NCBI GenBank assembly: GCA_018398585.1
Contig: JAGTTD010000005.1
Span: 10,591,355-10,655,354, forward strand
DNA length: 64,000 bases
Source of the DNA: Simmondsia chinensis
Taxonomy: Eukaryota; Streptophyta; Magnoliopsida; Caryophyllales; Simmondsiaceae
Direction: 5' to 3'
Shown: in pieces, positions 3,421 through 49,040 of the stretch
How the letters are laid out: each line of letters begins with the position of its first letter
How positions within the stretch are numbered: the first letter of the stretch is position 1
Program-made: the position numbers and the translations under genes
The notes under the pieces: model-generated
What the model was told of the DNA's origin: nothing
The model's input: only the letters and a program-made list of their open reading frames with translations
The model's database searches: none

Positions 3421-6256
3421 AGCCCTATTAAAGAAAAATAAAAGTGAATGATTAGGGTGAATTTGTGGGGGTAACTCGGTGCCCCTTGTAGTGGCACAAC
3501 GAGGTTGTGAGCATTTCTGAGTGATGTGTATGTGGTTGATCAAAGCAGAGGAAGAGTCAGCGTAAACCTCATTACAAGTCAATGCTTAAACGGTAATAAG
3601 ACTTTGAGTAACATAGTACAGCTTCCTCATCTATTCATCAATTATTGATCCTCCATTTGAGTGGTGGCGAGTTGCTGAAGTAACTCCATCTACTTGGCAA
3701 AGGATGGATCAAGATAACACTTTCCAAATGCTACCTAAATAGTTATGGAATCAGGCACGATTTATACATGATTCAGACTAGGGGAGTCAAAGTAGCAAAG
3801 ATTCAACAATTGATGCATTGATTTATATGAACCGAGGTTGAGTAATAAGGTTGACGTGAATTTGACCTTCAAGACTAAATATATTGCTGGGGACATTGAA
3901 AGGAGCCATCAACAAACTCGGCAAAGTTCATAGTCGATCAATAGAGATATCACCTAATCACCCAATAGTGGACAAGAAAGGACTCGTCATGCTTGCGAGC
4001 ATGGTCAGAAAGCCAATATGGGTAGTTGTAAGGCATTCAACGGTAATAATAAGGGCTTTCTTACTTACAATCACATTTAAAAATTGTCATTCTTCACTCA
4101 ATCGCCATAACTCTAAATGTTTTAATAAAGACAGCTTCAGTAGTCTTAGTTTTTTTCAATCAGGCACCTACATTGATGCCATTTAGTTGATTTTGAGGCG
4201 ATCATGTAATTTTACGTTTTCTTATACCAAAAAAGAGAAAAAATATATATATATCAGTATGGGTTTACTTGGTCAAGCAATAGCCCCTGAAATGGTCTAT
4301 ATATGCATGTTCGAATCCTACTCCATTCTTACTTGTACAGAGATTCGAACATACACTTAGAGCCACCTTAGCTGTATAGCTTTTTACCAGCTTGTATTTA
4401 TGCTTTCCCCAATTTATATACAACCCAAACAAAATCACATGTAAACCAAACGAAATATTAATGGCGTAAATGTATTTAACTGATTATAAACAATTAAATT
4501 TTTGAAAGTAATTCTCTAAAAAATTAAAAAAAATTGTGGTAGTTAAATAACAAATGATTACATCGAAAACTAATTTTATCCGCTAATAATAAAAGTAATA
4601 ATGAAGAATGTGTCAAAAGCATCTTGCCACTTCATATTGAGGAAGAATGATTAGGTGAGAGAGGTGGTCAAAATAATTAAATAAATGAAAATAAAAAACG
4701 GGGAATATTATTTTTGTTAGATGAGAAGAGAGGTTGCCCAATTGGGAAACTTAGTGGAGAGCTACCAGTCAAAGGAGTGCACTTGCAACACTCTTCACCC
4801 TTCCCTAGCTGTTTCACTGACTAGTGCACTGTACTCTTAACCACAATGAATTTTCACGCAGTCGGTGCCCTTCTAACCAAATATTTCAAGTATCGTAAAT
4901 TGCATAATAGAAATATGAGACCTTGAATATGTATTAATAGCGTATAAATTTTATAAAATAATTTCTAATTATGTTTCATGTATTTAATAAAATTATTCAA
5001 ATGACTATTTAAAATGATATAAAATTTGTCTTCATTTGTTGGTAAATCTGCTATCCCTCATTATTCTTCTCATCCAACTCATGAATTGGAATGTTGTCAC
5101 TTTTCTAATCAAGCAGAGTTGGGTGAAAGAGCCCATTTTAGACCTTTCCATACTTTGATTTGGAATTTTTTATTAAATACATATATTTTTAAGACACCTA
5201 CCTTCACACAACTAATATGCAATTTAACAAGAAAAAGTATTTTACATTGAACGTTTTCAGTTTTCTGAAGTGTTTGAACCAAATTTTAAAAAAAAAAAAA
5301 AAAAACATTTTTATTTTAGTACAAATATATCTAATTTTAAGTGCAATTAGAAAAATGATGACCTTTTTAACAAGCAAAGGTAGAAATAAAATCCAAAATT
5401 TTTTAGAATAAGATGTCTGCACCCATAATTTTAAAACGTTTAATTATAAAAGAGCAAATCTTTTTAAAAAAAATAATCATTTTCAAAATGAAGCGAATAC
5501 CATTTGTTCTTTAGAAATTAAAGGTTTGATATTAAGTCCTAGATATTCCCCAGCTGTACGAGAAATTGTAAAATTCAATTGCAAAAATTTAAGCGTCTAT
5601 TGAGTTTCTCAAACTAAAATGTTTTAGGTTGCTATCCGTTCATTTTTCCTCTACACTGAAATGGAATAATTACTATTTCTTTTCAGCTAAACACTGTAAA
5701 CTGAGCTTCCTTTACTTTATATTAACCGTAATGAGTTGAAACTCCATATGAATAATATATCATGGAAACAACAATTTATTTTAAATAATTATGCAAGTCT
5801 ACATTCGTCCTTCACATTTTCATTAAGTATTCCTAAACTAGATCTGCGAAAACAAATGCCAATCTACTTCTAAGGAGATCATAGTTTTGCAGTGAAAGAA
5901 TCAAATATCAAATGAGTGAGCAGCAGAAACTTTCTTTTAGTTAAATATTTAGGACAAAACGAGATAAAAAAGGTAAATCTATATTTTTTTTTAATTATAA
6001 ATTAGTTAATGATACAAAAAGAATATGGTTTGGAGATCAAATGATTGGGAGAATCATAAATCATTAAGAGAGAGAGAGAGGTCAAGTTCTTTGCATGAAG
6101 TATTTGTGTGAGGCACGTATGTAAAACTAAAAAATAAAAAGATGAAAAAAGAAAACAAAAACGAAAGCCACAAAAAACCAACAACAATGTAGGAAGCAAA
6201 GGATCTTTCTCTCAATCATGGGGCCCTCAAACTACCAACCTTTTCATCTTTCCTAC

Positions 6257-11512: not shown

Positions 11513-12879
11513 TTGTTCCAGACTCCTTGTCTGGTATAAAAAAAAAAATATTAAAAGTGTAATCACTTTATATGCTATCTTTTCTCTTCACTTGATAAAG
11601 TCTTGTGCATTTACAATAGGTCTTGATGGCCATAGGTTTGCATGCCGCCAAGCTAGCGCGCCGCAATTTTTCATCCAAACATTTGTTATTGTGGTTCTGT
11701 TTTTTATAGTTGTTGCGACAAAAATGAAAACATGGGATCATTCCTTCGTACTATGGGTTCGAGTGATGATTGTTGACCTAAAACCATCCACTCTCTCTAT
11801 ATTCGCTCTTTCCTAACATAGTTGGATGAGCAAAAAGGTGGTGTAATAATTTGTCTTCCAACTTCCCACATAAGAGGTTTTGGATTCAAAACTTATCATC
11901 CTTCTTCTCAAATGTTGGTTTCCCTCTTTCGGGAAAGATGTTGTACTCTTTACTAATGTAAAAAATAAAAAAGAAGCCGAGTTTTTCACGCCTTCATTTC
12001 TTGCCGTTACTTCATACTGGGGCAAGATTTTGTGCCAATTCCTTAATCGATCAATTATCTCCACAGGTGAATCTTTGGCCTACCTTGAAGGACTGATAAA
12101 CACACTGAGACAACAACAACATACCCAGTGCCCCAAGGGATCCCGCTCACGCAGAGTCTAGGAGGGGTAGGATGTACGCAATCTTACCCCATCAGGGTAA
12201 GATCCTGATGAGAGATTGCTTCCAAAGACCCTTGATAAACACACTGAGAAACATAGAAAAAGTCCTTCCCTTCCCTTCTCTTATACTCTCTCTAGAGGTC
12301 TGTCTTGTTCCTCTTCTACTACTAAGTAAGTTGGGTCGCACTCTAGTCCATCACTAAAGAGTATCTTTTAGTGGTGGGCACGATGTTAATCTTGGGAGTC
12401 GGAGTGCCAGTTAGTCCTATTCTACTAATGCGAGCCGGGCCATAAATGACCTAGGGTAGTGGTGAACTTACAACATGGCAATTTTTTGATTTGATCATTC
12501 CTTTCTACTTCTTATTTCCATTTGTTTCTTAATTGTTTTTGTTATTCATTTCTGGTTGTGTTCGACATTAGTTTTTTTATGTTATTAAGATTTCTCTGTT
12601 CAAACTCAAGATTGGTCCTAGCTATAGATTTAACAGTTTTGAAGTCTCTAGTTTACTCTTCTTGGTTCGGTTGATTGTCTTGAGTTTCTTTTTAATTAGT
12701 TACTGGCTTGTTTTCCCAACATGAAATATATTAAAGACATAAATTTTTGGTCTAATGATTGAATATATTAATAAACAAACTACATTTACCTTGTCGACTG
12801 AGCATACAAATAAACAAATTACATTTGCTCAATGTCGTTTACTTAAATGAGGCATGTAACTGCCCCATCAATAAAGTCT
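11513..12879. repeat. Tandem duplication, copy A
   Basis: The unit begins with tgttccagactccttgtctg and is repeated from 12880. Blocks that match copy B in the same order include 'ttatagttgttgcgacaaaa' (11707 against 13085), a 'gttggtttccctct' block and 'attggtcctagctatagatt' (12610 against 13832). Copy A is about 1.37 kb because it carries a SINE of 122 bp plus one target duplication. No coding domain was recognised; the unit could be a non-autonomous element or a segmental duplication. Confidence 0.85.
12111..12232 (-). mobile_element. TTG-tailed SINE (TS/Au-like), 5' shortened
   Basis: This short retroposon is flanked by a perfect 17-bp duplication, tgataaacacactgaga, at 12094-12110 and 12233-12249. 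Read on the minus strand it contains ggaagcaatctctc, a hairpin-like region, gcgtacatcctaccc and a cactgggtatgttgttgttg end. That end is the known 3' body and TTG tail of TS/Au-type plant SINEs, which borrow LINE enzymes to move. The pol III head expected at the 5' end is not recognisable, so it is probably 5' truncated. The second copy of the surrounding repeat has the empty site at 13466-13484. Confidence 0.9.
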
Positions 12880-35585: not shown

Positions 35586-35995
35586 TAATGCAGTGCATAA
35601 AGTGGAAAAAATTGGAAACGGGAAGGTTCAACGGCCTTCCCTTTAATTTTATGACAAAATTAGTAAAACAAGGGGGAAAAAGTCACTCAATTTCTCACAA
35701 CCGGAGAAAGAGAAAAAAAACCTTAGAAACTCGTTGGAAATTAATCAATAGAAAACTGTTGAAACCCTAACTCAACTGTTTCTTATATAGGGGAAAAGAT
35801 ATCTAGAAAACGAAACACTTTCCTAATCTAAATAAATAAAATCAAGATAAAGCAAAATAAAATCCTTCCTAATCTAAAAAACTTTTCTAATCTAAACGAA
35901 ACTCAAACTCTTCCTTTTACCGCGTCCAGGCAAAGCCGCCAACTAGGGCACCCGCCAACTCCTATCCGCCAAGTACGGCAACGCGGGTTGCATCA
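35586..35995 (-). repeat. 5' LTR of gypsy B (410 bp)
   Basis: Aligned with 27230-27641; read on the minus strand it starts TGATGCAACCCGCG. It is followed by the duplication caacc and then the right half of the split SINE. Confidence 0.9.
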
Positions 35996-36063
35996 CAACC
36001 CATATCACCCTGGCAGGGCGGGAGCCTCTATGAGGCACTGGATAGCAGTAGTAGTTGTTGTTG
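35996..36063 (+). mobile_element. TTG-tailed SINE, right piece split by gypsy B
   Basis: 'gggcgggagcctctatgagg', then a cactgg motif and a gtagttgttgttg tail, form the 3' end of the SINE begun at 27196. Joining the pieces across one caacc gives a continuous SINE body. The first five bases are the duplicated target. Confidence 0.8.
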
Positions 36064-36816: not shown

Positions 36817-36835
36817 TAGGGTATCTAAAGAACTA

Positions 36836-37098
36836 CAACAACAGCAACACCAACAACAGACCCAGTGCCTCAAGGGCTCCTGCATAAGCGAGGTCTGGAA
36901 GGGATGAATGTACGTAGTCTTACCCCTTTTGGGTATAACCCTGCCGAGAGACTGTTTCCGAAGACTCCTCAACCTTATAAGGTCGGCAACGCGAGGACTT
37001 CCCGGGAGGTCACCCATCCTGATACTACTCTCGCCCAAGCACGCTTAATTTCGGAGTTTGAATGAGATCCGGTGCCTTATTGCCTAGTAAATGAACCC
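36836..37098 (-). mobile_element. SINE with a 5S rRNA head and TTG tail, copy 1
   Basis: The 263-bp block is flanked by tagggtatctaaagaacta (36817-36835) and tagggtgtctaaagaacta (37099-37117), a 19-bp target duplication with one mismatch. On the minus strand it begins with a 120-base 5S rRNA-like sequence, continues with the TTG-SINE body (cttcggaaacagtctctc, ctacgtacattcatccc, aggcactgggtctg), and ends in ttgttggtgttgctgttgttg. The head supplies an internal pol III promoter; the tail is that of TS/Au-like SINEs moved by LINE enzymes. I know 5S-headed SINEs (SINE3 class) from animals, but I do not recall this combination in plants. Confidence 0.9.
36979..37098 (-). pseudogene. 5S rRNA-derived head of SINE copy 1
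   Basis: It is 120 bases long, the length of a 5S gene, and begins at the 5S +1 position with GGGT. The box A region (taagcgtgcttgggcgagag) and box C region (ggatgggtgacctcccggg) match plant 5S rRNA almost perfectly. The first 25 bases and the last 10 differ much more. It is part of the retroposon, not a 5S gene in an array: it has no T-run terminator and runs directly into the SINE body. Confidence 0.85.
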
Positions 37099-37117
37099 TA
37101 GGGTGTCTAAAGAACTA

Positions 37118-37605: not shown

Positions 37606-37619
37606 TATCAAAGCTCATG

Positions 37620-37734
37620 AAAGAGTACCAATACACAAGTGCCGGATCCCATTAGAACTCCAAAGTTAAGCGCACTTGAGTGACAGTGGTACCAAGATGG
37701 GTGACCTTCTGTGAAATCCTTGTGTTGCACCCCT
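37620..37734 (+). pseudogene. 5S rRNA-derived head of SINE copy 2
   Basis: About 115 bases match plant 5S rRNA: 'tgccggatcccattagaact', 'aagttaagcgcacttgagtg', 'gatgggtgacct' and the 3' end tgtgttgcacccct. The 3' end is closer to true 5S than in copy 1, while box A and box C have more changes. The junction to the SINE body comes right after the last 5S base. Confidence 0.85.
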
Positions 37735-37859
37735 CAGGTTGGGGATTTTCGAAAACAGCCTCATTTTAGGATAGCACCCTAAAGGGCCAAGACAGCGTAC
37801 ATTAAACCCTCCCAGACCCTGCTTAGGCAGGAGCCCTTGGAACACTGGGAATGTTACTT
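37620..37859 (+). mobile_element. SINE with a 5S rRNA head, copy 2
   Basis: The same chimera in the opposite direction: a 5S-like head (37620-37734) followed by the SINE body with gaaaacagcctcattttagg, cagcgtacattaaaccc and ggaacactgggaatg. It is flanked by tatcaaagctcatg (37606-37619) and tatcaaggctcatg (37860-37873), a 14-bp duplication with one mismatch. The TTG tail is decayed to 'ttacttt'. Its target differs from that of copy 1, so it is a separate insertion of the same family. Confidence 0.85.
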
Positions 37860-37873
37860 TATCAAGGCTCATG

Positions 37874-44834: not shown

Positions 44835-46907
44835 TCAGCCCAAAACCTGCGTGTCCGGCCTTCGGTAGCAAGCTTCAACATGTGTTGTGCAAACAGCCTG
44901 GACCCTGTCCAGAATATCACCTTGAACCATGCTCACACTAGCAAGGCTCGTCTTGCGGCTAAGTGCATCAGCGACAACATTTGCGGTACCCGGTTTGTAC
45001 TCCAAAGCATAGTCAAATTCAGCGAGGAAATCTTGCCATCTTGCTTGCTTCGGACTCAACTTCTTCTGGTTTTGGAAAAAGCTCGTTGCCACATTGTCAG
45101 TCTTGACAACGAACCTACTCCCAAGTAGATAATGACGCCATACTCTCAAGCAATGAATAATGGCGGTCATCTCTTTGTCATGAGTAGCATATCGACGCTC
45201 AGTTTCATTGAGCTTTCTGGACTCGAAGGCAACTGGATGTTTCTCTTGCATCAACACCCCTCCAATTGCAAAGTCCGAGGCATCGGTATGCACCTCAAAT
45301 GGTTGCCCAAAGTCGGGCAGGCGAAGAACGGGTTCCTCAATGACAGCCCGCTTCAAACTCTCAAAAGCAGCACGGCATCCATCATCCCAAAGCCATGGTT
45401 GCTTCTTCTTCAAAAGGTTGGTTAGGGGCGTGGCCCTAGCCGAATACCCGAGAATAAACCGCCGATAGTAGTTCACTAGGCCTAGGAATGACCGTAGCTC
45501 ACTAACTCCCTTAGGTTCTTCCCACTCTTCAATAGCGTGAACTTTAGCTTGGTCCATGCGTATCACCCCTTGGCCTATGCGGTGGCCAAGGAACGACACT
45601 TCCTCCTGAGCAAACGAGCATTTCTCTCGTTTGACATAAAGCTCGTTCTCCTTCAAAGCTTGGAACACCTTCTTCAAGTGCTCCACATGTTCTTCCAGGG
45701 ACTCACTATACACCACGATATCGTCGAGGTATACCACCACAAAGTTGACCAAGAAAGGCTTGAAGATCTCGTTCATGAGGGTACAAAACGTGGCTGGTGC
45801 GTTTGTCAACCCAAACGGCATCACCAAGAACTCATATGCACGATATCGGGTCACACAAGTCGTCTTCGGTTCATCACCCTCGGCTATCCGAACTTGCCAA
45901 TACCCGGACCTCAAATTAAGTTCGGAAAAGTACCGTGCCTTCCCCAACCGATCAAATAAGTCAGCGACAAGCGGAATCGGATATTTGTTCTTTACCGTGA
46001 CCTTGTTCAAGGCTCGGTAGTCTATGCACATTCGAAGTGACCCGTCTTGCTTCTTCTGGAACAAAAACGGTGCACCATACGGGGCCTTAGAGGGCCTAAC
46101 AAACCCCGCATCCAGAAGCTCCTTCAAATGCTTCCTCAACTCTTCCAACTCGCGTGGAGCCATACGGTAAGGCCCCATGGCGGGAGGCCTTGCCCCCGGC
46201 TCTAACTCGATCCTGTGGTCCACTTCCCTCCTCGGAGGTAAGTGTCTCAGTAACTCAGGCGGCATGACATCTTGAAAGGCATCAAGAAGTCCTTTCACTT
46301 CCACGGGCACTTCCTTAGAATCGGGCTTCTTATCTTCTACCAACGTAGCAATGTAAGTCACCTGTTTCTTTCGGATTCCCTTCTTGAACTGAACGGCCGA
46401 GAGAAGTTTTGCCTCTACCTTCTCACGTAGTAGGGGCACAGCAAAGGTCTCTTGGCCATGAGTGATCTCCATTATGTTCTCTCCCAGAAATGACAAGGGC
46501 TTCACGATGTCGAAGAAGTCCATCCCCAACACTACCTTGAAGTCATCCATCGTAACCACGGTCAAGTCAAGCGTGCCACTCCAATCTCCCAACTGGATGG
46601 GCACCTTCTTAGCAATCCCAAGGATCGGCTTGGATGAAGCATTAACGGTCTTCATCCAACCCAACTCCTTGACATAGTTCAACCCGAGCCGCCTTGCCTC
46701 ATGTTCTAACACGAAGTTGTGACTAGCACCTGTGTCCACAAATGCTTTTGTCTCGGCACCATTCACTTGGGCCTTAACATACATCAGCCCCTTGTTCCGT
46801 GTGCCCCCTGCCGGGACGGACACACCCCTGCGTGCCTGCGTCTGGATCGGGACAGGAGCCCGAGCCTGCGCCTGGACATGCGCGGCACCCGGTGCCTGCG
46901 TCTGGGA
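44835..46907 (-). pseudogene. Young chromovirus pol: protease, RT, RNase H
   Basis: One open stretch of more than 660 codons continues gag in the same frame after the TAG at 46910-46908. The protease has ETKAFVDTGASHNFVLEHEA (catalytic Asp intact). RT has QKKQDGSLRMCIDYRALNKV, YFSELNLRSGYWQVRIAEGD (the usual D of SKLDL is N here), MPFGLTNAPATFCTLMNEIF and VVVYLDDIVVYS. RNase H has FEVHTDASDFAIGGVLMQ, THDKEMTAIIHCLRVWRHYL and NVVADALSRKTS. The frame ends at 44835 at a stop just before the integrase zinc-binding region. Confidence 0.95.
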
Positions 46908-48278
46908 CTAGGTTTGGGAATGGACAGGCGCCCGGGCCTGCGCCTGGGCATGCGCAGCGCCCGACCCCTGCGTCTGTGTCTGTGTCAGCGTCTGGGCCTG
47001 GGCCCGTGTCTGGACATTCTCCTGACTCGCTGCAACTCTGCACGCACCCTGGGACATGGCCCCCAAGACACGCATTGAACCCATGCTTGCACCTCCGTTC
47101 TCTTGCTCTTGTGAAGCAACAAGGGCACTCAAAGCTTGACGTTCCGGATAGTCCCCGGCAAAGTGCGGGCCTGAGCATAGAAAACAGGACCGGCGGTTGC
47201 CTTGGTCTGACCGGTTGTCATGGTTTCGGTTGCTATGATGCTTGGTCTCATGATGCTTGTTCTCGTGTTGCTTGCCTTTGTCCTTCCATGAAGGCGATTT
47301 GTATGGCTTATCTCCCCCACTCTTCCCTTTGTTACTCTTGAAGTCCTTCTTCTTAGTAGAGTCTTTTTTGTACTCTACCAAGTTTTCGGCCTCGGATATT
47401 GCAGTGGCAAGATCTTGTACTCCTCTACGCTTCACCTCCATTTCGGCCCACGGTTGCAAGCCATCCAAGAAATAAAGGAGTGCTAATGATTCGGGCATGT
47501 CAGGAAGTTCAAGCATAAGGGACTGGAACTCCGTGACATAGTCCCTGATAGATCCCGTTTGCTTCAAACCCCTCAGCTTCTTCACAGCAACACTCTCGGC
47601 ATTCTTCGGAAAGAAATGTTTCTTGAATTCACGAACAAAGTCATCCCAAGTATCGATAGTGCAAGTCCCACGGCTTATGTCACCGTGGCGCCTCCTCCAC
47701 CACAACGCCGCATCATCTTGTAAGTACATCGATGCGGTGTTGATCTTGAGCGTCTTATCTTCAAGGCGAAGTGCCTCAAAGTACCTCTCCAAACACCACA
47801 AGAAATTGTCTATCTCTTTGGCGTTCCGTTTCCCTCCATACCTCGGCGGGTTTGGGACTTTGACACGAGACACACCACTCGTGCCAGCCCCATTAGCGAC
47901 AGCGGTCTTGCACAGCGTCACATCCTCCTTAACGATGTCAAGGTCTTGACATAGTCCAAAAACAGCGTCCTTTAGTTGATCAAGTTGCTCCTCCATGGCA
48001 TCCTTGATCTCAGTTATGGTCTCAAGGACCTTTCCCTCCATACCGGTGACACTCTCCTCTAGGGACTCGATAGTGTCAAATTGGTCATGAACATCACCCA
48101 TAACCAACTCTAATTTCGCCACACAAGCATCAAGACTACCAAGAGCATCCCGTGGAACAGACGAGTCCTTTGCCTTGCTTGCCTTTTTCGTGCGCGTCTC
48201 CGGTCTCCCTCTTGGTGGTTCCTCCATTGCTTGTGACGTACTTACAATTCCTTCCTCCACAACACTGCTCCCAACCAT
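46908..48278 (-). pseudogene. Young chromovirus gag
   Basis: The first ATG is at 48278-48276 (MVGSSVVEEGIVSTSQ); the frame is open further upstream, but those codons overlap the primer site. A coiled-coil region (LEESVTGMEGKVLETITEIK) precedes the retrotransposon-gag core with WCLERYFEALRLEDKTLKIN, DAALWWRRRHGDI and DDFVREFKKHFFPKNAESVA. A basic segment leads to a knuckle CFLCSGPHFAGDYPER (last Cys changed to Tyr). The C-terminus is a low-complexity Gln/Ala/Thr repeat (QAQARAPV repeated) with the TAG stop inside it. Pol continues in the same frame. Confidence 0.9.
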
Positions 48279-48289
48279 CACGTCAATCT

Positions 48290-48301
48290 GCGCTGATACC
48301 A
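48290..48301 (-). promoter_or_regulatory. Primer binding site of the young chromovirus
   Basis: On the minus strand TGGTATCAGCGC, one base different from the initiator methionine tRNA complement, two bases after the 5' LTR. Confidence 0.9.
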
Positions 48302-48303
48302 AC

Positions 48304-49040
48304 TGTCACGGGACGGTTTTTGACACCCTTGTCAAGCCCGTGCGCCACTTAACTTCACTCCGAAAGTACCTCGCTAAGTGAGGCTCTTCGTTAACCCGAA
48401 GGTTGTGTTTATGTGGAATAAAGGCAAAAGAGTGTTTTGGAACAAAGGAAATGGAGTCACAATAACAATGCAAGTACACATTCAAAGGGACAAAGAGCTT
48501 GGATTAATTTGGGTGAGTTTGGACCACCCTTGGCAATTGCCATTCCTTATTATATATACTCAATGATATTTACAAGGGGTATGAACCGTGTGTATTTCCC
48601 AAGGGGCACGGTTCATTACCTAGGAGACATGAATATTAAATAGGTACATGAATCTAGTCTAAATACATGGAATATTAAAGGGACAAAATCGGGTGCACTC
48701 CCCTTGGGCTAAGCGTGTCAAGAGGACCGTGTAAATGGTCCAAGAGACACGCCTCAACAGCAAGGGACGCGACCTTGGGAAGGACATGGGCGCCCGTGTC
48801 TGGGCCTGCGCCTGGGCGCGCTGGGATGCGGCCCTTACACTGCCTGGACCTTGTCTGGGCCGTGTCTGGGGCGTGTCAAGGCCCTTTGGACGTGACCCTT
48901 CGTGTCAAGCGACATATCCTCCCGTTTACATACACGCATCAAGTAAATTAAGGAAAAATAAGGAAGGCCTAGTACTTCCTAGGTCCTTCTAGTACATTAT
49001 TAAAAATAAAAAATTACTATGATATTGGCGGTCCGTGACA
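48304..49040 (-). repeat. 5' LTR of the young chromovirus (737 bp)
   Basis: Near-identical to 42715-43450. It ends at 49040, and the interrupted Reina integrase resumes at once with tcaggcatacatggc. Confidence 0.95.

Follow-up and report, generated by a model that had tools for sequence, protein, structure and literature searches.

A dispersed SINE family with a 5S rRNA-derived head in the genome of Simmondsia chinensis

Introduction

When a stretch of DNA resembling 5S rRNA lies directly against the body of a plant SINE, do the two form a single mobile element or have unrelated sequences come to rest side by side? This question is raised by positions 36817–37117 of a 64-kb stretch of the genome of Simmondsia chinensis (the window). 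A reading made from the sequence alone had described a 5S-like head of about 120 bases starting at 5S +1, joined to a SINE body with a TTG tail and enclosed by one target duplication, and had proposed that a head swap created a new SINE family.

The proposal is unusual for a plant. In the passages available to us, a 2022 review derives plant SINEs from tRNAs (PMC9033089) and a 2023 guide derives nearly all of them from tRNAs (PMC10741241). A 5S sequence is known in plants from Cassandra, an element with an internal 5S that is described as widespread in land plants in parts of three papers (PMC10886601, PMC10853983, PMC7215508), one of which (PMC10853983), in the text available, refers to animals where it cites the capture of promoters by SINEs. 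SINEs with 5S-derived heads form the SINE3 class, which is said in excerpts of one paper to have arisen several times independently (PMC10886601). Here, we describe the locus, the family to which it belongs (5S-SINE) and the explanations that compete to account for it.

Results

Two 5S-headed copies and a headless copy in the window

Copy 1 occupies positions 36836–37098 on the minus strand (263 bp) and is supported by an Rfam 5S match together with a DNA search of its own genome. Rfam matched 37100–36981 (minus strand) to positions 1–120 of the 5S model with 54.7 bits (gathering score 38, E 1.1e-8). The head itself (36981–37098, minus strand), with its start set by the target duplication, runs from GGGT at 5S +1 to the 5S 3' end, and this GGGT directly adjoins the duplication. 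It is followed by the body (36860–36980, minus strand), which alignment shows to be common to copy 2 and to the headless copy described below, and by a TTG-rich tail (36836–36859, minus strand). The duplication lies at 37099–37117 on the 5' side and at 36817–36835 on the 3' side and measures 19 bp with 1 mismatch. Both the complete head and the 19-bp duplication with a single mismatch are therefore as the sequence-only reading described them.

Copy 2 lies on the plus strand at 37620–37859, starts about 5 bases inside the head and ends in AATGTTACTT rather than in TTG. Its Rfam 5S match covers 37615–37733 (plus strand, 43.1 bits), and its duplication of 14 bp with 1 mismatch lies at 37606–37619 (5' side) and 37860–37873 (3' side). 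The two copies can be aligned across a common head–body junction and fall in different subfamilies, copy 1 in A and copy 2 in B. A headless copy at 12111–12232 (minus strand) consists of body and TTG tail only; it has a perfect 17-bp duplication on both sides and its first base is about 10–15 bases past the head–body junction.

A SINE-like unit at 35950–36063 (plus strand; start guessed) also has a TTG tail and carries a head of another kind. Only about its last 45 bases are in common with the 5S-SINE, at 77% identity. The idea that body and TTG tail recur in other SINEs of the window thus holds for the headless copy, which has both; it fails for the tail of copy 2 and extends only to those 45 or so bases of the unit ending at 36063. 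No tRNA genes were called in the 64-kb window. Long open frames at 44835–48305 (minus strand) resemble, by eye, a Gypsy-type LTR retrotransposon.

The head–body junction recurs throughout the genome

We searched the genome from which the window comes (831,394,711 bp in 35 contigs). Copy 1 served as the query of a DNA search that scored the best 40 of the 7,251 candidates from its first look and returned 42 rows. All except one (41/42) spanned head and body, and the remaining one covered 51 bases. At 20 loci examined with Rfam out of a set of 30, the 5S model matched the element over positions 1–120 in every case. An exact pattern running from box C to the start of the body had 2,251 + 2,213 = 4,464 matches genome-wide, compared with 0 + 0 for the reversed control. 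Among the 100 matches listed, the match length was 58–60 bases in 74, 64 in 1, 67 in 8, 70–71 in 16 and 73 in 1. Because these lengths show three sharp modes (59, 67 and 70, among the 100 matches listed), the junction is inherited. The element therefore exists in far more than the two copies first noticed, and its head and body do not meet at random points.

Copy number was estimated from a sample of 200 kb on 18 contigs, taken as twenty 10-kb stretches at fixed positions. In this sample there were 15 BLAST clusters, of which 8 span the junction, as well as 8 Rfam 5S matches, which scales to about 33,000 copies genome-wide (Poisson 95% 14,000–66,000). This estimate is likely too high because 18 of the 20 stretches begin 5 Mb into a contig, and on contig C1 the listed matches are denser there. 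The exact pattern found 2 matches in the sample against 8 copies, which scales the 4,464 matches to about 18,000. From these two considerations, we put the copy number at roughly 10^4 or more. On the first 22.8 Mb of C1, 54 of the first 100 listed junction matches lie within the first 6 Mb. Viral contigs contained 0 matches to the head–body pattern, to a second head–body pattern or to the body pattern; the head–body pattern had 3 matches in contigs of bacterial and archaeal genomes, which we take as chance.

Head, body and tail insert as one unit

Target duplications at threshold were found in 29 of 42 copies, compared with 3/420 in swapped-flank controls, where the flanks came from different copies; the other 13/42 copies had none at threshold. 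Not entered in this test were L004, which duplicates copy 1 of the window, the second of two views of the L008/L017 pair, L015, which is fused to its neighbour, the truncated L043, and any copy too close to the end of a locus or missing much of the head. Duplications were present in 24/35 copies of subfamily A and 5/7 of subfamily B, and in 8/14 copies that had not been found as search hits. They were 14–25 bp long (median 17, copies tested). With offset placements as the null, 24/30 loci had duplications against 0/180. With a further null the comparison was 24/30 against 20/600, this null being inflated by TTG repeats.

The position of the duplications defines the element. In subfamily A, 13/24 stop exactly at 5S +1 and 23/24 within 4 bases of it; in subfamily B, 3/5 stop exactly at the first base of the head. 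Head, body and tail insert together, and many copies have their own duplications. These other copies confirm the earlier suggestion that the chimera moved as a single element. The unit is also not part of a longer element in the copies tested, since the duplications flank 5S +1 and the end of the tail in 29/42.

The core of the 5S promoter is conserved in the consensus heads

For comparison with the heads we used a typical plant 5S with approximate box limits, either of which may differ from the host 5S. Against this reference, 12 positions are changed in consensus A and 16 in consensus B. The changes are unevenly placed. Within the core (31–112), A has 3/82 changes and B 4/82, whereas the head ends have 9/37 and 12/37 (core versus ends, Fisher p 0.0013 for A and 0.00013 for B, all against the reference 5S). 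Neither consensus is changed in box A (0/15) or in the intermediate element (IE, 0/6), and box C has 1/18 changes in A and 2 in B, again relative to the reference 5S. In copy 1, the equivalent of box A (5S 50–64, approximate limits; 37036–37050, minus strand) has 1 change against 0 in the consensus, the IE has none, and the equivalent of box C (5S 80–97, approximate limits; 37003–37020, minus strand) has 2 against 1. The description of boxes A and C as nearly unchanged within a head that has otherwise drifted is therefore accurate for the family. Because even drift would not spare the core of the head, the source copies were likely under promoter selection. The unchanged box A and IE beside diverged head ends fit a putative Pol III promoter that has been kept.

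The true 5S genes of this genome are mainly in tandem arrays apart from the SINE copies. The 5' end of true 5S, with one mismatch allowed, had 62 + 107 matches in the genome; of the 100 listed among these 169, the majority fall either in one tandem array of contig C8 (4,686,078–4,719,402) or in clusters on C3 and C8. The spacing in the best-preserved part of the C8 array is about 435 bp. An exact 34-base piece of the reference 5S core had 8 matches in the genome, 0 of them in the C8 tandem array. Since this piece is absent from the array, the host array 5S differs somewhere from the reference 5S, and the counts of changes given above may shift. RNA folding of the two consensuses was no stronger than that of shuffled sequences (z −0.80 and −1.32).

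At least three subfamilies share the body

The family has at least three subfamilies, which correspond to the modes of match length. Subfamily A (length 70) has GTTGCCAACCCTATAAGGTTGGGGG at the junction and B (length 67) has GTTGCACCCCTCAGGTTGGGGG. The junction of subfamily C (length 59) is that of B minus 8 bases, and this form is the commonest among the 100 matches listed. Subfamily A ends in TTG repeats and consensus B in AATGTTGC(T)n. A tree of 43 copies is star-like, with A (36 copies) and B (7 copies, including two whose junction is C-like) separated by one branch. The support for this branch is 100/98, and it is the only starred one among 40 inner branches in a bootstrap that had not settled. 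The star-like shape fits descent from few source copies.

Thirty copies chosen by similarity to copy 1 diverge from consensus A by 1.6–9.8%. In these same 30 copies, C-to-T and G-to-A together make up 317/409 changes, as would be expected for the decay of methylated copies.

The 3' end and the search for a donor

We take the body of copy 1 to resemble the 3' domain of Au/TTG-tailed plant SINEs. In the part of a published comparison available to us, all 7 of the RTE families tabulated for flowering plants terminate in (TTG)n or (TTGATG)n, the TS SINE of tobacco has about 100 3' bases in common with an RTE LINE, and Au-like SINEs are reported with poly(T) ends (PMC3747384). By analogy with such plant pairs, the TTG tail of the 5S-SINE points to a putative LINE partner of the RTE type. 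It is not certain that a single LINE partner serves all subfamilies because consensus B and copy 2 do not end in TTG.

No RTE LINE sharing the 3' end of the 5S-SINE was found in the DNA upstream of eight headless copies. By eye, no reverse transcriptase was seen there in three frames among open stretches of at least 45 residues (up to 1,500 bases upstream, less for L026). At L040, a 319-residue open frame lies within the 1.5 kb that leads up to a body copy truncated to 4518–4588 (minus strand) and is possibly a host gene exon.

A tRNA B box joined to the 5S-SINE body has 1 exact match in the genome, compared with 4,464 for the 5S-headed pattern of similar length. The sole match, at C18:7605581–7605606 (plus strand), is possibly a relic of a tRNA-headed relative. 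With the B-box form before the body occurring exactly only once genome-wide, a simple exchange of heads on a tRNA-headed SINE of high abundance has no support. The original proposal of a new SINE family is supported; its LINE-recognised 3' end is a prediction from the TTG repeat and the published plant pairs, and a tRNA-headed donor for the swap is not visible. The family may equally stem from direct joining of 5S RNA to a LINE 3' end.

In four headless copies (L009:1816, L011:1857, L034:1988 and window 12117), the duplications place the start no more than about 15 bases past the junction. The remaining ones start further into the body or are without a clear duplication. Starts near the junction may reflect stops of reverse transcription at the structured 5S part, with the numbers small and the folding not unusually stable. 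In four other cases, L014:945 (minus strand), L022:1862 (minus strand), L026:217 (plus strand) and L037:4173 (minus strand), the body is preceded by pyrimidine-rich stretches (TGCTTT, CTTTCATG). At L014 and L026, duplications of 16 and 24 bp about 110 bases upstream suggest a further type of head.

Discussion

These data support the idea that the locus holds a member of a 5S-headed SINE family in which a 5S head and a body, each about 120 bases long, are inserted together, with a TTG tail in subfamily A. We give this reading, including likely transcription by Pol III and predicted copying by an RTE-type LINE, a probability of roughly 0.87. Pol III would start at +1 by the TFIIIA route through the internal promoter of 5S, so that the SINE RNA would carry its own promoter inside. 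The TTG 3' end of this RNA would be recognised by an RTE-clade LINE, and a new copy would be made by target-primed reverse transcription. As for its origin, a LINE reverse transcriptase may have copied a LINE- or SINE-type 3' end, jumped to 5S rRNA and copied this to its 5' end. A template jump of this kind would account for the union of a complete 5S with a body that is truncated.

Chance can be set aside with most assurance. Independent insertions of headless bodies do occur, in favour of 5S retropseudogenes having inserted separately beside unrelated SINE bodies, but the same junction in thousands of copies and duplications that enclose the whole unit make this explanation scarcely credible. 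It is also very improbable that the 5S stretch belongs to an LTR of Cassandra, solo or truncated. Cassandra, a TRIM retrotransposon, is the known plant element that contains a 5S, yet its 5S sits at about the middle of the LTR in the descriptions available, whereas in the tested copies the unit ends at 5S +1, next to the duplication. The duplications of 14–25 bp and the termination of subfamily A in TTG repeats also speak against it.

A 5S-headed SINE family could have arisen more than once. That A and B gained their 5S heads independently would account for their separate clades, for the differences in their first 24 bases and in their tails, and for the placement of 15/18 A–B head differences in the first 24 positions. 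Against this, the start of the body is common to A and B (GGTTGGGGG..CTCGGAAACAGCC) and both share changes at 39, 79 and 93 relative to the reference 5S, although these could be letters of the host 5S. On balance we consider repeated origins unlikely. Somewhat unlikely, too, is that Repbase, Dfam or a subscription paper already describes the family from this plant or a relative of it. A repeat caller would catch about 10^4 copies, and in potato 9 of 688 unknown repeat consensuses matched Rfam RNAs including 5S rRNA, according to the passage available (PMC4524691). Pointing the other way, the two reviews cited at the outset leave little or no room for plant SINEs outside the tRNA-derived type, and a paper placing SINE3-like 5S in plants cites the Cassandra paper for it in the text available (PMC3095306). 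Among the literature matches listed, the titles and the starts of abstracts contained no plant 5S-headed SINE.

The reading that we prefer, a family of 5S-headed SINEs, can be compared with several known systems. The 3' domain of the Au SINE/Angio-SINE superfamily, which is characterised by a 37-bp Angio-domain near the 3' end, presumably resembles the 5S-SINE body. Heads in that superfamily are tRNA-derived, with a box B, and the 5S-SINE head is 5S instead. The TS SINE of tobacco, whose 3' end is common with RTE-1_STu, has a (TTG)n tail like subfamily A, and differs in its tRNA-related head with boxes A and B, as far as the cited account goes (PMC3747384). Ped-1 of the springhare combines a 5S rRNA head with a BovB LINE tail in Table 1 of the same paper (PMC3747384), in a mammal; the partner of the 5S-SINE is only a predicted one. 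Cassandra is likewise a plant retroelement with a 5S promoter. It differs as an LTR element with the 5S at about mid-LTR in the descriptions at hand, and the 5S-SINE has its 5S at the end of the unit beside the duplication and not inside long terminal repeats. There is also a likeness to SINE3 of fish, lepidopterans and others, described in excerpts as having a 5S-derived head with an internal Pol III promoter (PMC10886601). The 5S-SINE has a 5S-derived 5' head and moves as head, body and tail together, and, judged against the reference 5S, it appears to have kept the internal 5S promoter. The SINE3 hosts named in the text available are animals plus the fungus Aspergillus (PMC5063351), whereas the body and tail of the 5S-SINE are of the plant type.

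Among animals, SINEs with 5S heads are well established as a class, and their presence in a fungus is reported; a plant case was not met in the literature listings searched, and one may have been described elsewhere. We regard it as an even call whether this is the first plant SINE lineage to have swapped a tRNA-type for a complete 5S (type 1) promoter through one RTE-type template jump, expanding to about 10^4 copies divided among three or more subfamilies and displacing tRNA-headed relatives here.

The family also carries a warning for annotation. Rfam labels both window copies as 5S rRNA, and AnnoSINE, as partly described (PMC8825457), discards candidates too close to Rfam RNAs (E below 1e-15). 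Annotation based on boxes A and B, or filtered against Rfam, could miss or mislabel copies. A plant SINE with a 5S head in about 10^4 copies would show that the promoter module of plant SINEs is open to wholesale replacement, and the 5S-SINE is a system in which to ask if a TFIIIA-type promoter alters the timing and location of SINE transcription and silencing.
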